This document shows positions 1,976 through 46,045 of a DNA stretch of 64,000 bases, piece after piece. Below the pieces are notes generated by a model, which was not told where the DNA came from, searched no databases, and was given only the letters and a program-made list of their open reading frames with translations. The number at the start of each line of letters is the position of its first letter. Positions within the stretch are counted from its first letter, which is position 1. The stretch lies in IMG/VR virus record IMGVR_UViG_3300036770_004060, positions 1 through 64,000 of that record. One strand, given 5' to 3'. Source of the stretch: a virus. Both the position numbers and the translations under genes were made by a program.

Positions 1976-4900
1976 TCTCAATGTCTAGTTTTTCCTTGTC
2001 GTTTCCATACTTATTAAGTATCTTTCCTTTAGCGTATTCAGTTGAAATTTCTTGTAAATATTTCATATCCTTTTCTAAAACCTCTCTAGTCTTAATTGAG
2101 TTTAGATATTCGTAGTTTTCTAAAACAAGTTTGTTATAATATTCTTCTTGAATCTTTTGAGCCTCATCTTGAATACTATTATCCTTAGAGAATACTTTTA
2201 GTTTTAAATCGGGCGCACCATCTATCTTTATGGTATAAATAAATCCTTTTTCAGAATCCTCACGCATCTCACTAAAATATCTTTTGCTTATATTAAGACC
2301 TCTATCAAACTTATACAACAATCCAACTGTTTTAAGTTTTTCTGAACGTTTTTCTCCTATATCAAAAGTCTCTTTAAGGAATTTAGAGTAGTTGGTTTCT
2401 TTAGGATATATATTTCCAAATACATCTGTTTTATTCTTGTCAATTATTCCATCAAGTCCATAGAAGTTTTTAGCAAATCCTTTTACTAATGAATAGTCTC
2501 CCTGAGTATCTTTTTCGGGTTTATCGTACGCCGATTCAATAGCAACGAATATGTCTTGAAGAATAGCAGGGGCAAGTATAGGTTTAGTCTTATCTCTTAA
2601 CACACCAGTTCCAACAGAAGCCCATTTTATTAATGGGTTATCGTCGGGTGCTTGGTTGTAATCCCTAATCATTCTACTTAAAGATGTAAGGCTATTATCA
2701 GTAAACACTCTTAAATTGTTCCCTAGTGCTTTTACAAATCCTTTAGTATTTGGAGCAGATGAAAAATTTTCCATTCTTCTTTCTCCCATTTCTTCATGCA
2801 GGTAGTCCGTAAATCCTGTAATATTTGCAAGTACAGACTGAATAGATGGAGATAACTCAAAATTTATATAATTATCAAATTTGCCGTCTTTGTCTTTTGT
2901 AAATGATATTGATAGTGGTTGGTAGTTTTCGTGAGCTTTTTCGTTTTCTTTAAAATTAACACCAAAACCTCTAATGTCTAGTGGTCTATCTTTTCTTAAT
3001 TTATATTTCTTTTCTTTATCATCCCATTCCATCATGAGCATAAGTCCTGCAAGTGCTAACCCTGTAACAACTAAGTTAGAGGTAAGTCGTTGTTTTGCAA
3101 GAAGCGGATTAGCAATTTGTTTTCCTTTTATATCTCTAATAAACTCTCCAGATACAGGGTCATATCCTATTCCATAATAAGCATCAATTGCTCCAAGTAT
3201 AGGCATTCCAGTTTTAGACTTATTAAAGATGTTTACAGAAAGCCTAAGGAACATAAAAGTTAAGTTAAATAGTAGCTTACTAGACATTACAAAAGCATTG
3301 TCATTTTCATTTATTGCAGTAGTTTTTTGAAGTCTATCTAAGCCATATCCTAAAACCCCATCAGATTTTGCTATCAAGGAAACGTCTTTTGCTAACTGTA
3401 CACCATGCTCAAAATGAGTTCCTAATTCATTTTCTTGCAATTCTTGAACTCTAGTTGACAGATATGTTTCTTTAGCGTTAAATCTACTTCCTGTAATGCC
3501 TAGCTCATCCCTAATTAACTCAACAACTTTATTTTCTTTTTCAGCATCAGAGTATTCAGGGTAATTATAGGTAACAAATTCTTTTATTCTATCTTCTATT
3601 TGTTTAAAGTCTTCTTCCGCTATTTTTCTAAACTCATCATTTAATAGGTAAGCAGGTTCTTTTCCTGCTTTAACAGCTTCCGTAGTTCCAATTACTTGTC
3701 CTGCAATAACATTCATAAACGTATCTAAAGCCCCAAGTGCATGGACACCTTTAAACGTTTGACCAAAAGTTTTGTACGCAACTTTACTATATTCTTTATT
3801 ATTAAACGCTTCACCTAGACCTGATAATAAAGCATTTTCAATAGGATTTTTCATTTGGTTTCCTCTTGAATCAACGGAAGATTGACCCTCACGAAGTCCA
3901 GATTCTCCGTAAAAATTAAATCCTGTTTTTCTAGCTATTGCTGCTTTCCTAAATGCTGTTGGTATTGCTTTATACCCTGCATAAATTCCTTTAGCATAAG
4001 CGTTAACATCTCTTTTATACGTTTTATCTTTTATATTAGATATAGACGGAACAAGATTATTCATTGCGTAAATAAGCGAACCCCATCCAGCCTCTCCATA
4101 ACCACCAATACCAGCTTTAAAGAATGTTACTATGTTTGATAAAACAGCCGTGTACATTGTAGATTCTATTGTTCTTGCAACTTTATAAAAGTTCCATGGT
4201 TTAGCTGTTTCAAGAAGCGTGTTAATCTGCATTTGAAGCCTTTGTATTTGATTCTTCTTATAGATGTTCAACACTTTAGGTTTCCCATTAGTAGTTTCTA
4301 TTTCTTTAGACAAATCCTCCTCCAGTTTAAACATCTGCCAAGAAATACTATCTATTTTTTTACGAATATCTGATGGTATGTTTCTAAAACCAAAACGCTT
4401 TTCAAAAGCACGGGTAAACTCATTGGCATCTGTTATACCGCCAAGTTTAATCATATTCATAATCTTGTTTCTTTCACGTCTATTATTTGATTCGTCTATA
4501 CGTTTTTGTAATTCTAAAGATTCTTCTTCACTTATAGTTCCTCTTATTTTCTTTTCTTTTAAGGATTCGGTTGTTAATCTTCCATCTTGTTTCTTAATAG
4601 CATCAATTATTTTTAGTTGCTCTTTAGCTACAAGTTTTTCTATGCTTTCATTAATTTTATCCTCATATTCTTTAGCTATATCTTCTGCCATTTCTCTAGG
4701 AATATTCGTTTTACTGATTATGGCATCTACAAGCGTTCTAGTATATTGACTTCTACCCATATAGTGGTCTTTAACAGCTTTTTTTATAGCCTCTGTGGTA
4801 ATTATCCTCTCTTTGTCGATAGCTTTCTGTAAAACCTCTATTTCATCAGATACCTTTTTGACCCTTTCGTTTAATTTTGGTGTATATTCTCCAACACCTT

Positions 4901-7900: not shown

Positions 7901-10784
7901 CACCCTCTTTTATAAACCTACCAAACTTTGTACTATTAATGTAATAATCATCAAAAGATTTTACTACTGTTTCTAGTCCTTTAATGGCTTTTTTAGTATC
8001 CATTGCTCTATCGGTAAGGCTTATTAATCTAACCCCATTTCTAAGAAAAGACATTGGTGCACTGATTGATGGAGCAGATAAAACAATCTTACCTACTATT
8101 GCAGTAGAAAGTCCTATCATTTCTCCAAATCCCTCTCTAGTTGCCCAGTGGGTTTCTCCTCTGTTTTTTAAGTCCTCTAGTTTAGTATATGCCGTTAAAT
8201 CTTTCTTATCAAATCCCTGTTCACCTAAAGTACCTCTTATTATTCTTGCCTTTTCTGTTTCTGAAATATAACCATCTGCTCCTGCTGTTGATGGTTTCAA
8301 TTCTTTCCCTATTCCGTTAACAACAGAATCCCAAAATCCAGCACTTTCAGAGGTAAACCCTAAGTCGTTGTTTAAGTAAAGTGATTTTAAAGAATTTAAA
8401 GTTTTTACCCTTTTAAAGTATTCTTTTTCCTCATCGCTTAATGCTATACCTAAACTATTCCAGTCTAAGGCATCACGAAGTCTTGCTCCGTATTTATCCC
8501 ATAAGTTGGTATCTATTTCGTACTTACTAGCAAACTTTTTAGTGTCTTTTTCGTAATCGCTATACCAAATATCAAACTTAGTTTTAGGGTCTAGTCCTTT
8601 AGGTAAATTATTCCAAATAGCTTTAGCTGTTGGTGTTGAAAAGTCATTAAACAGTTTAGCCGTTTCTTTAGGTTCTGTTAAGAAAAAATTTCGTTTGTTT
8701 TCTTTAAGTTTAGTTTTTTCACCAATTAAAAAATCTCTTTTTTGTTTATAGACATCTAATTTCTCTTTTAAGTCAATAAGGTCTGTAATACTCTCTCCTT
8801 TAGTATAATCAAATTTTAAGTTTTCTATTTTATCTTCAAGTTTTGCTATACCACTATCATAACGTTTGATTTTAGTATCAATTCGTAATATATCATCAGA
8901 TAAAGTATTATGTACAGAATTATCTAAATCATCTATTGTTTTTTGAAATCCAGCTAATTTTTGTTTCACATAAGCTAACTCTTTTTTATCACTTATGTTA
9001 ACTTTTATTTCTCCATTTTCAATTTTAATCTTACCGTTATCAATATAATCTTGCATGAAGTTATACATATCAACGTGCATATTGAACTTGTCAAATGTAA
9101 ACTTATCTGAACTTGTAAGGTTTGGGTCTTTTCCTAGGTGTCTAATACTATCAATCTTTCTTTCAAGCATAAGTGTTTTAATACTTATACCTCTTTGATT
9201 AGCCTCGTTATAATCGTTATTGATATTTTGTGAAGTTTCTACAAACTTCTTTATCTCATCGTTTTTAGCTATAATTTTTTTATTATTATCGATAGGGTCT
9301 AAAAGTAATTCTTTTACTTCTTTTTGGTAATCTTTAAGTTGTCCTTGTTGGTCTTTACTTAGAACAACCCCTTGTGAAGCCCCCCAAGAATCTATGTCTT
9401 TTTCAGCAAAGTTTTTAGCCTCATTAAAATCAACAGTTCCTGTTTGTTTAATTATTTTTTTTAATTTTATGTTTGCCTCCTTTTGTTCTTGGAACTTTTT
9501 AATTGGGTCTTTAGAAAAAGATTTAGGACTTACATCCATCCCAATAGCCTTATTTAATGTTGAATAAAAATCCTCGTTAGCAGGATTTAGGGTTGGAAGA
9601 ACTACTTTTTTTTGACCGAAAGTTTGCTGATTTCTTAAGAGCTGATTCTTTTTTTTATCGTAAGTTGCGTTTACCTGCGCTTGTTGTTTAGGTGTTCTAG
9701 CATACTGTAACTCGTCAAGTCTTGCCTGTTCAATACTGTTAAACTCATTCTCGTAATACGATTCGTTTCCATTGACACTTATTTCTATCCCTTTTTCTTG
9801 TTTAGGAGTAAATAGTGTACCTGCAACATCTGTATTATCAACTACTGGAGTTCCATCTGAATAAAAAGACTGTGGTTCTGCTCCAAATCCTACTCTTTGG
9901 GGCGCACCAAAACCCTCATTGTTTAGTAACTTAAAAGTTGACGATATTTCCTTAATCTCCTTTTGGTTTGGGTGTTTAGTCTTTGTTCCCCATTGCCTGT
10001 CAAGAGCGGAAATACTCCCTATGTTTGTTACCTCGTAATAATCTTCATCACTACCCTTTAATTTCTTCTTCCATTTTCCCGATTCTCTTATGTACTCGTA
10101 GTTATTTTCTTTTCCTGAACTATCCGTATAAGTATAAATACCATTAAAAGTTTTAGCATTTGTTTTATTCTCTCTATTTAAGGCATCAACAGAACCTTTG
10201 TTAGTAATGGTAAACCATTCTCCGTTACTTCCTTTTACTTTTTTTTGATAAAACCCATTAATAATCCTATACTCATTTTCTGGCTTTGTTGAATAAGATA
10301 AAATTTGAGTTTGTGGTTTAGGTGTTGGCTTTAGTTTTTCAGGAATTATTTGTTTAGGGAAATACGGTTCTACATCTACACCAAAATCATAATCTATTGA
10401 ATTATTTTTTTCTTCTAAGTTTACATCTACACCAAAATCGTACTCAATTTCTTCAACTGGCTTTAAGTCAAGTGTTATAGGCTCATCTGCATCAATTTCG
10501 TCTAGTGATTGAGTAATCCCCATAATACTGTCAGCATCAATGTTTAGTTGTTCTTGCTCTGATATTTGTGGAATTGGTGGAACATTAGCTTCTTGCATTA
10601 GTGCTTCTTGTTCTGTTGGAACAGTAGCTACTTGTGCTAATGGTGGTGGTTCTACTGGCGCACTTTCTTGAATAGGTGCTTCAATATCTGCAACATATTG
10701 TTCTTGATTGTTTATAGTATTATCTTGAAGTTGAAGTGTTTGACCCTCCCCACCTGTTTGAGAATCCATGAAGTTCTTAGCCAT
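1965..10784 (-). CDS. Giant internal virion (ejection) protein, 2,939 aa
   Basis: This is the largest gene and the last of the tail/internal-core block. Residues 1-165 are Gln/Pro/Glu-rich and look disordered. A module of about 35 aa is duplicated (171-205 and 228-263; shared GS..E.., TN.GS..AL.R). Long Lys/Glu coiled-coil stretches follow. Hydrophobic segments lie near residues 890, 1070, 2215 and 2570, the second preceded by a GGGEVIEESLQE segment typical of polyvalent ejected proteins. Position and size fit a podoviral core protein that enters the host envelope or cytoplasm with the DNA. I found no RNA polymerase DxDGD motif and no clear lysozyme motif. The ATG at 10784 has its own upstream region because an antisense gene separates it from the preceding virion gene. 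Confidence 0.75.
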   Translation of the reverse strand: MAKNFMDSQTGGEGQTLQLQDNTINNQEQYVADIEAPIQESAPVEPPPLAQVATVPTEQEALMQEANVPPIPQISEQEQLNIDADSIMGITQSLDEIDADEPITLDLKPVEEIEYDFGVDVNLEEKNNSIDYDFGVDVEPYFPKQIIPEKLKPTPKPQTQILSYSTKPENEYRIINGFYQKKVKGSNGEWFTITNKGSVDALNRENKTNAKTFNGIYTYTDSSGKENNYEYIRESGKWKKKLKGSDEDYYEVTNIGSISALDRQWGTKTKHPNQKEIKEISSTFKLLNNEGFGAPQRVGFGAEPQSFYSDGTPVVDNTDVAGTLFTPKQEKGIEISVNGNESYYENEFNSIEQARLDELQYARTPKQQAQVNATYDKKKNQLLRNQQTFGQKKVVLPTLNPANEDFYSTLNKAIGMDVSPKSFSKDPIKKFQEQKEANIKLKKIIKQTGTVDFNEAKNFAEKDIDSWGASQGVVLSKDQQGQLKDYQKEVKELLLDPIDNNKKIIAKNDEIKKFVETSQNINNDYNEANQRGISIKTLMLERKIDSIRHLGKDPNLTSSDKFTFDKFNMHVDMYNFMQDYIDNGKIKIENGEIKVNISDKKELAYVKQKLAGFQKTIDDLDNSVHNTLSDDILRIDTKIKRYDSGIAKLEDKIENLKFDYTKGESITDLIDLKEKLDVYKQKRDFLIGEKTKLKENKRNFFLTEPKETAKLFNDFSTPTAKAIWNNLPKGLDPKTKFDIWYSDYEKDTKKFASKYEIDTNLWDKYGARLRDALDWNSLGIALSDEEKEYFKRVKTLNSLKSLYLNNDLGFTSESAGFWDSVVNGIGKELKPSTAGADGYISETEKARIIRGTLGEQGFDKKDLTAYTKLEDLKNRGETHWATREGFGEMIGLSTAIVGKIVLSAPSISAPMSFLRNGVRLISLTDRAMDTKKAIKGLETVVKSFDDYYINSTKFGRFIKEGVKQGAQFEVAGMFFNDPNKQLKFANGFVGLTGSKAIIGLYGKTKKALGLTASIFGQSTPKAVQVIKNVGARGGGEVIEESLQELTSIYNDELRTRGFWDEVATRYKDIDDVMQLVVSSFILGGAFGLALPQSTQDAYDNLEPKQKETIKDIVEEVRNDVDEANVEADEVAKEVADNLEASDNLDKEEVVKETPPESKEKETVSDTVSEDKIEEVKPIVEDVSPEEDTKIIQMPKQEGLRMNPKTAQFLGKEVNIKGTTEQESTIKEPSKEQLRKDVYNGDVSSFEYETEAEIPEYFKDRVKPTKNENGDDIFEVTVPNSLLDFYLEKELLSNKQVEDNNLRSGEASPEILLNEDLDTAYIDQNNKVYTEEDVLKMDKKELSDMIMQNPSEKVTSYVESYFKKEGKIKISEPLILKNEQNLKQEEYDKENQTGISSGEQGGEKTIKGEPIQAGSTEEASTSGILEAQEQVNETAPNVFDKFANNIRKLKTDKPKMINPLTGEEIEFVKFGIDWNDLVEKVADMVEKTGDIVGAVKKYLKTNEFYNSLSDSSKENIEKQVLANLPSQEDVVSDEPVEQLVEESNPVSEGTTMETPKAEKQTEPVQNIPPRIVPENMSKKGEAEKALEDGKKYSSAAFRASEMQDEAMAKKIKDMGTYTVQNQEEFSKKIDEFLTLRTPLEAILYVRSAQTSEVSRDIKTAVIMEGSARITNDAMVLKDKAIRTNDNELLQIAETELESAMGFLAEVSLERTQEGQINSYLNKVYQKYPTVFSMEKVYGFDPNRKIRERIQEHINSGRYGVLNALGSLVNEAFTDEVIDEAIKKVSNKKYPKKPKETNAQREARIADLKIKIEETYKRLKEEFKKGGSGELSANGFPTRIIENVGYLVAYHVQLGVLNAMQIVEEIYKNLVDGNPLNRDNILAIARENPEFEAIYQSDLDKAKSQKERLAKYKSILADLEKGKQRNKRTQNRTEDSTELKEVKARIAELEKIQNLKKILEGLRKGVGEYTPKLNERVKKVSDEIEVLQKAIDKERIITTEAIKKAVKDHYMGRSQYTRTLVDAIISKTNIPREMAEDIAKEYEDKINESIEKLVAKEQLKIIDAIKKQDGRLTTESLKEKKIRGTISEEESLELQKRIDESNNRRERNKIMNMIKLGGITDANEFTRAFEKRFGFRNIPSDIRKKIDSISWQMFKLEEDLSKEIETTNGKPKVLNIYKKNQIQRLQMQINTLLETAKPWNFYKVARTIESTMYTAVLSNIVTFFKAGIGGYGEAGWGSLIYAMNNLVPSISNIKDKTYKRDVNAYAKGIYAGYKAIPTAFRKAAIARKTGFNFYGESGLREGQSSVDSRGNQMKNPIENALLSGLGEAFNNKEYSKVAYKTFGQTFKGVHALGALDTFMNVIAGQVIGTTEAVKAGKEPAYLLNDEFRKIAEEDFKQIEDRIKEFVTYNYPEYSDAEKENKVVELIRDELGITGSRFNAKETYLSTRVQELQENELGTHFEHGVQLAKDVSLIAKSDGVLGYGLDRLQKTTAINENDNAFVMSSKLLFNLTFMFLRLSVNIFNKSKTGMPILGAIDAYYGIGYDPVSGEFIRDIKGKQIANPLLAKQRLTSNLVVTGLALAGLMLMMEWDDKEKKYKLRKDRPLDIRGFGVNFKENEKAHENYQPLSISFTKDKDGKFDNYINFELSPSIQSVLANITGFTDYLHEEMGERRMENFSSAPNTKGFVKALGNNLRVFTDNSLTSLSRMIRDYNQAPDDNPLIKWASVGTGVLRDKTKPILAPAILQDIFVAIESAYDKPEKDTQGDYSLVKGFAKNFYGLDGIIDKNKTDVFGNIYPKETNYSKFLKETFDIGEKRSEKLKTVGLLYKFDRGLNISKRYFSEMREDSEKGFIYTIKIDGAPDLKLKVFSKDNSIQDEAQKIQEEYYNKLVLENYEYLNSIKTREVLEKDMKYLQEISTEYAKGKILNKYGNDKEKLDIEIKE

Positions 10785-22450: not shown

Positions 22451-22867
22451 ATGGAGTTAAAAAAATACATAGAAAGACAAAATACTTTAAAAGGTATAGC
22501 AAATAGTTATACTTATAGATTTTTTAAAGACGGTAAAATTCAATTCCCAACTCTTCTCGGATTAAATAAAGAATACCATAATTTATTGAATGGTGAAAAA
22601 AACGAATATTTTACAAATGAAGAACATATATTTGTATGGGAAGAAATAGTAAGATTATTGGATTTAAAAACTGGAATAGTAGGTTCAATTTTTTCAGATG
22701 AAAACAATAAAATTAATACGAGTGAGAGAATAGTAACTACAATACGAACAAATTCTACTGGAAAAAGACAAGAGTGTAGTTTGTTTTCTTACGGAAAGAC
22801 TAATGAATACTTATTTGCAGATTTAGAATTAAGATACGATTTTATTGATGTTAAATTAGATATATGA
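22451..22867 (+). CDS. Hypothetical protein, 138 aa
   Basis: Starts immediately after the preceding stop and overlaps the HisRS-like gene by 4 bp (ATGA), so it is probably translated together with both. Soluble, mixed charge, no recognised motif. Confidence 0.6.
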   Translation: MELKKYIERQNTLKGIANSYTYRFFKDGKIQFPTLLGLNKEYHNLLNGEKNEYFTNEEHIFVWEEIVRLLDLKTGIVGSIFSDENNKINTSERIVTTIRTNSTGKRQECSLFSYGKTNEYLFADLELRYDFIDVKLDI

Positions 22868-23505
22868 AAGAGATAAAACTTAAAAAAACTTATAAGGGAA
22901 CTAGAATACTAATAGGCAACAAAAAGAGAGAGTTACTTAATAAAATGATAGACGTTCTTTATTTTTATGGTTTTGAGGAAATAGAAATTCCTATTATACA
23001 ACTTAAAGAAACTTTTGAGAATAAAGTTGGAAAAGAAAACAACAATCTAATGTTTAACTTTAAAGATAATGGTAACAGGGATATTGTTTTATCTCCTGAA
23101 TATACTAGTGTTATTCAACAATTGTCTAAAGAAACATACAAACAAGAAAAAAACGTTAAACTTTTTTATATTCAAGAATGTTTCAGAGGTGAGAAACCAC
23201 AAAAAGGAAGATACAGACAGTTTACCCAACTTGGAGTAGAAATAATAAACCCCAATGATAGTATAAACAATAACACACTTGTTCAAATAGTAATAGAACT
23301 ACTATCCACTTTACATGATATTAGTTTTGATTCGTTTAAGGTTAACTACGAGGTTAAGAGAGGGCTTGACTACTATAATGACGGAAAAGGATTTGAAGTT
23401 TTGTGTGAAGAACTAGGGTCTAGTAAACAAGTATGTGGTGGTGGGTTTTATAATGGAGGATGTGGATTCTCTCTAGGGATTGATAGGTTAATGTTAATTA
23501 AGTGA
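22864..23505 (+). CDS. Minimal histidyl-tRNA-synthetase-like protein, 213 aa
   Basis: A compact class II aminoacyl-tRNA synthetase catalytic core of the HisRS/HisZ type. Visible signatures: KGTRILIG near the N-terminus, a motif-1 region (YGFEEIEIPII, 35-45), motif 2 (FRGEKPQKGRYRQFTQLGVE, 107-126), the histidine-site signature RGLDYYN (166-172), GGGFY (192-196) and motif 3 (GFSLGIDRLML, 201-211). Bacterial HisRS is roughly twice this length; the C-terminal anticodon-binding domain and insertion domain are absent here. It could aminoacylate or bind a tRNA-like substrate, act as an adenylating enzyme, or serve regulation as HisZ does. It sits in an overlapping gene run, which argues that it is functional. 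Confidence 0.8.
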   Translation: MKEIKLKKTYKGTRILIGNKKRELLNKMIDVLYFYGFEEIEIPIIQLKETFENKVGKENNNLMFNFKDNGNRDIVLSPEYTSVIQQLSKETYKQEKNVKLFYIQECFRGEKPQKGRYRQFTQLGVEIINPNDSINNNTLVQIVIELLSTLHDISFDSFKVNYEVKRGLDYYNDGKGFEVLCEELGSSKQVCGGGFYNGGCGFSLGIDRLMLIK

Positions 23506-23851: not shown

Positions 23852-24187
23852 ATGGAAGCACAAGGACAAGGTAAAATAATTAAAATTTTAGATACTATGG
23901 TTATATCTGATAAATTTAGTAAAAGAGAAGTAGTGATAAGAGTACCAGACCAAAACCCACAATATAGTGATGAGCTTATATTTGAGTTAATACAGGATAA
24001 ATGCACCTATTTGGATAACTTTAAAGTTGGAGATGATGTTATGTTTAAATTTAATATTAAAGGTAAAATTCATAAAGATAAATGGTATAATTCATTAAGA
24101 ATATGGAATATATCTAAAGTTGGTGGTAATCAACCTAAAGTTATTAGTCCATCGTCAGAATTTGATGGGTTTGATGAACCATATTAA
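23852..24187 (+). CDS. DUF3127 OB-fold protein (SSB-like)
   Basis: The pattern G.GKIIKILDT..ISDKFSKREVVI, then a KVGDDVMFKFNIKGK segment and a YNSLRIWNISKV end matches DUF3127, a small OB-fold family common in Bacteroidota and their phages. The acidic tail ending FDGFDEPY resembles the protein-recruiting tails of SSBs. It probably binds single-stranded DNA. A second, canonical SSB is encoded at 57787. Confidence 0.75.
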   Translation: MEAQGQGKIIKILDTMVISDKFSKREVVIRVPDQNPQYSDELIFELIQDKCTYLDNFKVGDDVMFKFNIKGKIHKDKWYNSLRIWNISKVGGNQPKVISPSSEFDGFDEPY

Positions 24188-24905: not shown

Positions 24906-25448
24906 ATGAAAAAAGTAGAACAAGTTAATAGACCTCTTAAACTAGGAGAAAAATACTTAGTTCCGTGTCTTGTTAGTTACCATTTTCACGAAGAAAATAT
25001 TGATGAAGAAACTTTGTGGCTAGATTTAGAACCTTATACATTAAATAGTGTATATAAAAATACAATTTCAATTACGCCAATAATAAATCATCCACATTCA
25101 GACATAGAAAACGGACAAAAAGAAATTCACTACCACAAAGACACTAGATTTATAGATAAAAGAAAACCAAATTATAAATCATTATATCAGTTTTCTCAAC
25201 TACCAAGAGGAGAAGTTGGCAAACACGGAAGAATAGAGTACCTTGAACTTCCAGTTGTTAGTGAGTTATTTGATGAAATAACACCAGTAGAATTAATTAA
25301 AAACAGCAAATTGAAACACAAATGTATTCATAATGGTAAATGTCCTCATCGTGGTTTTAAGATGAATCAGGTTAGTCCTATAGACGGAATACTTACTTGT
25401 CCTTTACATGGGCTCAAATTTAACTATAAAACTAAACAGATGATATGA
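24906..25448 (+). CDS. Protein with C-terminal Rieske-type [2Fe-2S] motif
   Basis: The last 40 residues contain C146-x-H148-x16-C165-x2-H168 (CPHRGF and CPLHGL), the two-Cys/two-His ligand set of Rieske clusters, with the HGLKFN...T turn that follows the second ligand pair in Rieske ferredoxins. Residues 1-135 match no family I know and contain several His residues. Overlaps the next gene by 4 bp. No oxygenase or ferredoxin-reductase gene is in the window, so any redox partner would be from the host. Confidence 0.7.
   Translation: MKKVEQVNRPLKLGEKYLVPCLVSYHFHEENIDEETLWLDLEPYTLNSVYKNTISITPIINHPHSDIENGQKEIHYHKDTRFIDKRKPNYKSLYQFSQLPRGEVGKHGRIEYLELPVVSELFDEITPVELIKNSKLKHKCIHNGKCPHRGFKMNQVSPIDGILTCPLHGLKFNYKTKQMI

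Positions 25449-44598: not shown

Positions 44599-46045
<1,447 letters not shown>

Follow-up and report, generated by a model that had tools for sequence, protein, structure and literature searches.

The gene that we studied in the window, the whole 64,000-nucleotide stretch of viral DNA that was analysed, encodes an intact, reduced histidyl-tRNA synthetase (HisRS) and is not a fragment. It belongs to an unnamed monophyletic family of phage and bacterial proteins, here called mini-HisRS. The gene product is probably a compact HisRS that supplies His-tRNA-His in shortage and that in relatives would be switchable by frameshifting, with the window copy in an in-frame branch. The family itself, its bacterial copies, a frameshift cassette at a His codon, His leader peptides and the near absence of histidine from the proteins all go beyond the first-pass annotation of the gene, which was made from the letters of the window alone.

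Sequence searches against Pfam, NCBIfam and the PDB placed the window protein with HisRS every time. The Pfam match was to tRNA-synt_His (2e-21), and the NCBIfam hisS model matched far better than hisZ (7.8e-44 against 2e-25). In a phmmer alignment with E. coli HisRS, residues E79, T81, R108, Q122, E126, R166, Y170-Y171 and R208 correspond to E83, T85, R113, Q127, E131, R259, Y263-Y264 and R311. The catalytic arginines and the histidine-binding residues (the equivalents of E83, T85, Q127, E131 and Y264) are all kept, and all these aligned residues are invariant across 29 aligned in-frame family members. AlphaFold, run without templates on the window and locus proteins alone, modelled the window protein with a class II fold (pLDDT 88.8, pTM 0.87). 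The best match of the model among solved structures was E. coli HisRS with His-AMP (1kmm; TM 0.84 by query length). The first-pass annotation had held that the class II motifs and the RGLDYYN signature are kept in only 213 residues, and the alignment, the 29-member invariance and the fold bear this out. The structure prediction that it had proposed as a check matched HisRS, and the search for phage homologues found a family in which the ATP-binding arginines are kept.

The protein shares with bacterial HisRS (TIGR00442) the class II fold, motifs 1-3, the HisA and HisB regions and the catalytic and histidine-binding residues, but differs in what surrounds them. Bacterial HisRS has ~424 residues, twice as many as mini-HisRS needs in the window (213). 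Between motif 2 and HisA, ~27 residues (130-156) stand for ~115 in the E. coli enzyme. The C-terminus lies five residues past R208. As the sequence stops at motif 3 there is no anticodon-binding domain, as had been proposed, and the short linker means that the insertion domain, which the earlier account left unnamed, is absent too. The HisB region carries a KQ that is invariant in the 29 in-frame members, where E. coli HisRS has GT, and the hisS score of 150.3 bits is under the curated cut-off of 286.75. The E. coli HisRS Ncat fragment and the HisRS urzymes indicate that a HisRS core can stay active after losing the anticodon domain. Those cores are man-made, whereas mini-HisRS is natural, selected and stand-alone, and also lacks the insertion domain.

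Table 1. Parts of the mini-HisRS gene in the window
Feature	Positions	Strand	Evidence
mini-HisRS gene, 213 aa, one unbroken frame, ATG start	22864..23505	+	ORF, Pfam, NCBIfam, alignment, model
ATGA, shared by the mini-HisRS start codon and the stop of the preceding ORF (22451-22867)	22864..22867	+	
Motif 1 region, GFEEIEIPII, P43 nearly invariant	22969..23001	+	E. coli HisRS alignment, family alignment
Histidine-binding LSPEYTS; E79, T81 = E. coli E83, T85	23089..23109	+	invariant in family alignment
Motif 2 and loop; R108 = R113; GRYRQF; Q122/E126 = Q127/E131	23155..23247	+	E. coli HisRS and family alignments
Short linker in place of ~115-residue region with the HisRS insertion domain	23251..23334	+	query 130-156 against E. 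coli 135-249
HisA signature RGLDYYN; catalytic R166 = R259	23359..23379	+	E. coli HisRS and family alignments
HisB region SSKQVCGGGFYNGG	23419..23460	+	E. coli HisRS and family alignments
Motif 3 GFSLGIDRLML; R208 = R311	23467..23499	+	E. coli HisRS and family alignments

The overlap with the preceding gene, which the first reading had also reported, is the ATGA listed in Table 1. The window gene has no frameshift, no His leader and no nearby tRNA-His. Downstream lie genes for a DUF3127 protein (a phage single-strand DNA-binding family; window 23852-24187) and a Rieske-like domain protein (window 24906-25448), and the same phage encodes an RtcB-type tRNA splicing ligase (window 44663-46045, + strand; phrog_1075, 1.9e-94).

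A scan of viral contigs with the single sequence found no relatives, but alignment-based scans found the family on ~45 different viral contigs, of which many measure 250-580 kb. The tblastn matches to the window protein were in two metagenomic phages of 634-642 kb (58% and 55%) and in Sinorhizobium phage Phosso, whose copy already bears the annotation histidyl-tRNA synthetase. In each of the 33 viral records searched mini-HisRS was the sole HisRS-like gene over the cut-off. Genes of an RNA ligase family flank or follow it in the 634-642 kb phages (L002 9343-10008 and 10890-11603; L003 10875-11588 and 11814-12464). The bacterial copies, at 54 loci, come from Pseudomonas, Paraburkholderia, Chromobacterium and Myxococcota. 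Their distribution is uneven, with the gene in 16 of 199 Pseudomonas species and in two of 398 members of a phylum-level sample, the query genome counted. NCBI names the bacterial copies 'ATP phosphoribosyltransferase regulatory subunit', after HisZ, and at two of the bacterial loci L093-L148 (L147 and L148) the annotation covers the second frame only, missing the start and the frameshift. Pfam, NCBIfam and PHROGs hold no model for the family as such.

In an ML tree all mini-HisRS sequences fall into a single clade (100/100). This clade sits with HisRS, and HisZ is separate and outside (100/99). The stem joining the family to HisRS is long, at 2.81 changes per column, which leaves room for a changed substrate. 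Clade A, to which the window copy, both phages of 634-642 kb and further viral contigs belong, is in frame throughout. Most of clade C is in frame and most of clade B is frameshifted, and in clade B the bacterial copies are nested among phage ones. One in-frame member of clade B has a Cys/His-containing C-terminal extension (L061 8600-8708). Close pairs within the family have dN/dS of 0.04-0.11, which indicates purifying selection. The earlier view that the gene is not a decayed fragment is upheld by this and by the conservation of the family.

One annotated neighbour in name proved to be something else. The 'histidyl tRNA synthetase' phrog_4806 of Escherichia phage phAPEC8 is also short and class II-like, and gave a weak profile match (1.4e-5). 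We rejected it as a member of the family: the four sequences compared have no RGLDYY, and some genomes carry both genes at separate loci. It occurs at L181, L182 (phAPEC8), L183 and L184, with two copies in phAPEC8, and is found besides mini-HisRS in two huge phages.

The mini-HisRS frame is split by a +1 frameshift in 63 relatives. In clade B the first ~27 residues (MLRGTR...) are in one frame and the remainder in the +1 frame. At the junction an SD-like hexamer (CGGAGC, AGGGGG, CGGAGG or similar) is followed by three bases, CTT or GTT, then CAT or CAC, and soon after by a first-frame stop. The slip codon is CTT in 56 of the 63 loci and GTT in seven; the next first-frame codon is CAT in 54 and CAC in nine, always His and never UGA. 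In most of the 63 the SD core is in the RF2 register, 3 nt before the slip codon, and at two loci (L076 and L086) there is no clear SD at the shift site. The cassette sits at three positions in the protein, ~9 residues earlier in L078 and ~44 later in L080, both with CTT CAT, and the tree requires at least three changes between the frameshifted and in-frame states. In L080 a slip at CTT gives CL followed by IPE and restores an otherwise invariant Leu, which an earlier slip would not do. For this reason we prefer a slip at CTT, and rejected an early slip at GGG codons. A later scan with the C-terminal halves found a new frameshifted genome (L209), which reads CGG GGG TTG GTT CAT TGA, as predicted, and a new in-frame genome (L216). 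The pattern behind the slip table, [CG]TTCAY, favours His, but in a separate check with any NTTCAY no frameshifted locus failed; shifts at wholly different codons were sought only by reading the frames.

The prfB cassette, which controls RF2, consists of an SD, a spacer, a CUU slip codon and UGA (PMC5009743, PMC3711429). As read from the DNA, the site in the relatives is a copy of this cassette with a His codon in place of UGA. The two have in common an SD-like hexamer, a 3-nt spacer, a CUU slip, a slow A-site and a product that would relieve the slowness. They differ in the A-site codon, UGA in one and His in the other, and in the product, here a tRNA synthetase homologue. The cassette is a feature of relatives, not of the window copy. 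We infer that the cassette directs frameshifting in cells, and its anatomy says that the frameshift has probably been selected as a switch.

Most bacterial copies are also preceded, 100-250 nt upstream, by a short ORF that contains consecutive His codons, and by a GGCGCC-type terminator just 5' of the gene. One such leader reads MNQFHRSNRHHHHSP, and the two Myxococcota copies have MHHHL. Folding gave terminators of about -13 kcal/mol, with competing pairing in some leaders; Rfam had no match for them, and the regions that precede 13 clade A loci showed no His runs. Control of hisZ and of a hisS paralogue (hisS*) by His leaders is already known in bacilli (PMC2965389). Those attenuators likewise have a short His-run ORF and then a terminator, but the mini-HisRS leaders are in Proteobacteria and Myxococcota and are combined with a frameshift.

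The frameshifted proteins are themselves almost free of histidine, with seven His in 63 proteins and none at all in 57. This amounts to 0.06 His per 100 residues in the bacterial and 0.03 in the phage frameshifted proteins, compared with 1.85 in HisRS and 1.99 in HisZ. The in-frame clades have 0.37-0.84, and the depletion in clade A (0.44) is milder than in the frameshifted proteins; the window protein has one His. Neighbouring ORFs have ~3.0 per 100 beside the frameshifted genes and 1.6 beside those of clade A. The cassette, the leader and the composition are distinct from one another, and each indicates that charged tRNA-His is in short supply.

In the phages the tRNA itself is often close by. 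For 19 phage loci a tRNA gene lies no more than 600 nt away, and the nearest is tRNA-His in nine, against 2.3 expected from within-locus shuffling (p=1.5e-4); with one locus per lineage it is seven of 13 (p=4e-4). The gap to mini-HisRS, on either side, is 6 nt in L078, 8 in L067, 11 in L071, 12 in L042, 13 in L068, 25 in L066 and 223 in Phosso. Most phage tRNA-His have the G-1:C73 pair. Second tRNA-His genes in L063 (7249-7324) and L067 (6976-7051) seem to be without it, and tRNA genes with a CTA (amber) anticodon occur in L067 (12364-12520), L076 (277-431) and L049 (1425-1497). The idea in the first-pass annotation that a tRNA-like RNA might be the substrate is unnecessary, as several phage relatives have an ordinary tRNA-His gene, mostly of the G-1:C73 type, beside the enzyme gene. 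No tRNA-His was found in the window record (67.8 kb), nor in two contigs of near kin, one of 330 kb with 13 tRNAs and one of 143 kb with 8, so that for the window enzyme the substrate would have to be a tRNA of the host. Around the bacterial mini-HisRS genes, no tRNA-His lies closer than several kb.

Phosso carries a G-1:C73-type tRNA-His (L004 3745-3823) with its own mini-HisRS (4044-4686) and has an alpha-proteobacterial host. Some alpha-proteobacterial groups use another tRNA-His identity (PMC9976931). The contrast between host class and phage tRNA makes this phage of interest, and its tRNA-His and mini-HisRS may be an orthogonal pair.

We propose that mini-HisRS activates histidine with ATP and then transfers it to tRNA-His. 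Since the anticodon-binding domain is absent, the tRNA would be recognised at its acceptor end (G-1:C73). E. coli HisRS charges acceptor minihelices and microhelices that have G-1:C73 and no anticodon (PMC9976931). The enzyme would act as an emergency or backup HisRS, in phages during takeover and in bacteria upon failure of their housekeeping HisRS. Many relatives would sense the shortage directly. With the SD-like element 3 nt before the CUU or GUU slip codon, a ribosome that pauses because its His codon is unfilled would shift to +1 and make the complete enzyme; with plentiful His-tRNA it would terminate in the first frame a few codons on. The leader peptide and terminator would add a transcriptional layer in bacteria. 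Being almost histidine-free, the frameshifted products could be made without His-tRNA. The window copy, from an in-frame phage branch, would be without these switches, and only the enzyme part of the mechanism would apply to it. The inducing condition is presumably low charged tRNA-His, with HisRS inhibition or loss, or phage takeover, as candidate triggers. Several points count against the scheme. A shortage of free histidine itself would not be cured by extra HisRS, and the loss of both accessory domains should cost efficiency. The window copy and its nearest relatives show neither frameshift nor His leader, the depletion in clade A is mild, the stem to HisRS is long, and tRNA-His is not close to the bacterial genes.

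Stand-alone class II cores that use other acceptors are known, among them AsnA, BirA and EpmA. On that precedent mini-HisRS could adenylate histidine and pass it to a protein or a small molecule, and the long HisRS stem, the missing tRNA-binding accessory domains and the bacterial copies without tRNA neighbours would all suit such an enzyme. We think this unlikely, since the phage gene often adjoins tRNA-His, the motif 2 loop is like that of HisRS, and the His-sensing regulation suggests that charged tRNA-His is the controlled quantity. Still more doubtful is a HisZ-like regulatory role, or one as a sensor of histidine, in which the protein would bind HisG or host HisRS and no longer catalyse. 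The NCBI name of the bacterial copies derives from HisZ, which is a HisRS paralogue, and the His leaders of bacilli stand on hisZ as well as on the hisS paralogue (PMC2965389). However, HisZ is longer, falls outside the family and is without adenylation activity (PMC9437257), whereas the catalytic arginines and histidine-binding residues of mini-HisRS are invariant. Its partner HisG was absent from the 22 phage records searched, and all six bacterial genomes tested have other full-length HisRS/HisZ-type genes besides mini-HisRS. The earlier suggestion of a regulator of host HisRS is left without support by the same evidence.

The switch itself can also be questioned. The conserved CTT-CAY might be mere Phe-Ile coding in the second frame, with the shift upstream and histidine not sensed, and the second frame of the main group would indeed give F-I/T there. 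This has little to recommend it, as CTT-CAY is common to all three positions of the cassette, the Leu of L080 is restored only by a slip at CTT, the SD register is that of prfB, and the His leaders and histidine-free products give the same signal. That the frame breaks are sequencing errors or pseudogenes of a decaying gene is scarcely credible. Two copies are truncated (L057 and L144) and gene finders call the second frame only, but one cassette recurs at ~45 loci in bacteria and in the genomes of 16 phages, among them the complete genome of the Phosso isolate and, for the bacteria, a finished Pseudomonas chromosome, and both frames are conserved, with the low dN/dS given above. The L057 copy (8001-8459) ends before RGLDYY and adjoins a tRNA-His; it is probably a decayed copy or a rearrangement.

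We file mini-HisRS as a reduced HisRS variant to which relatives add a variant of the RF2 circuit. On balance we lean towards a nearly histidine-free emergency HisRS, common to huge phages and bacteria, with an RF2-like +1 switch at stalled His codons that the window branch lost or never had; this would be the first synthetase known to be frameshift-controlled at its cognate codon. The literature gave no account of the family or of such a synthetase, which is weak evidence as subscription journals were poorly covered. 'Hungry codon' frameshifting has so far attracted attention chiefly as a consequence of amino acid starvation, and a large review (PMC5009743) names no tRNA synthetase as using it as a switch.

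The bacterial copies have been annotated as a regulator of histidine biosynthesis, with their first frame overlooked. If our reading is true, they and their phage relatives have a second autoregulatory +1 circuit beside that of RF2, in which charged tRNA is sensed and the product restores charged tRNA. Mini-HisRS proteins are natural stand-alone HisRS cores, near the laboratory-made minimal synthetases in size, so the minimum needs of a synthetase become directly testable. The paired tRNA-His suggests that some phages may carry their own histidine-decoding set.
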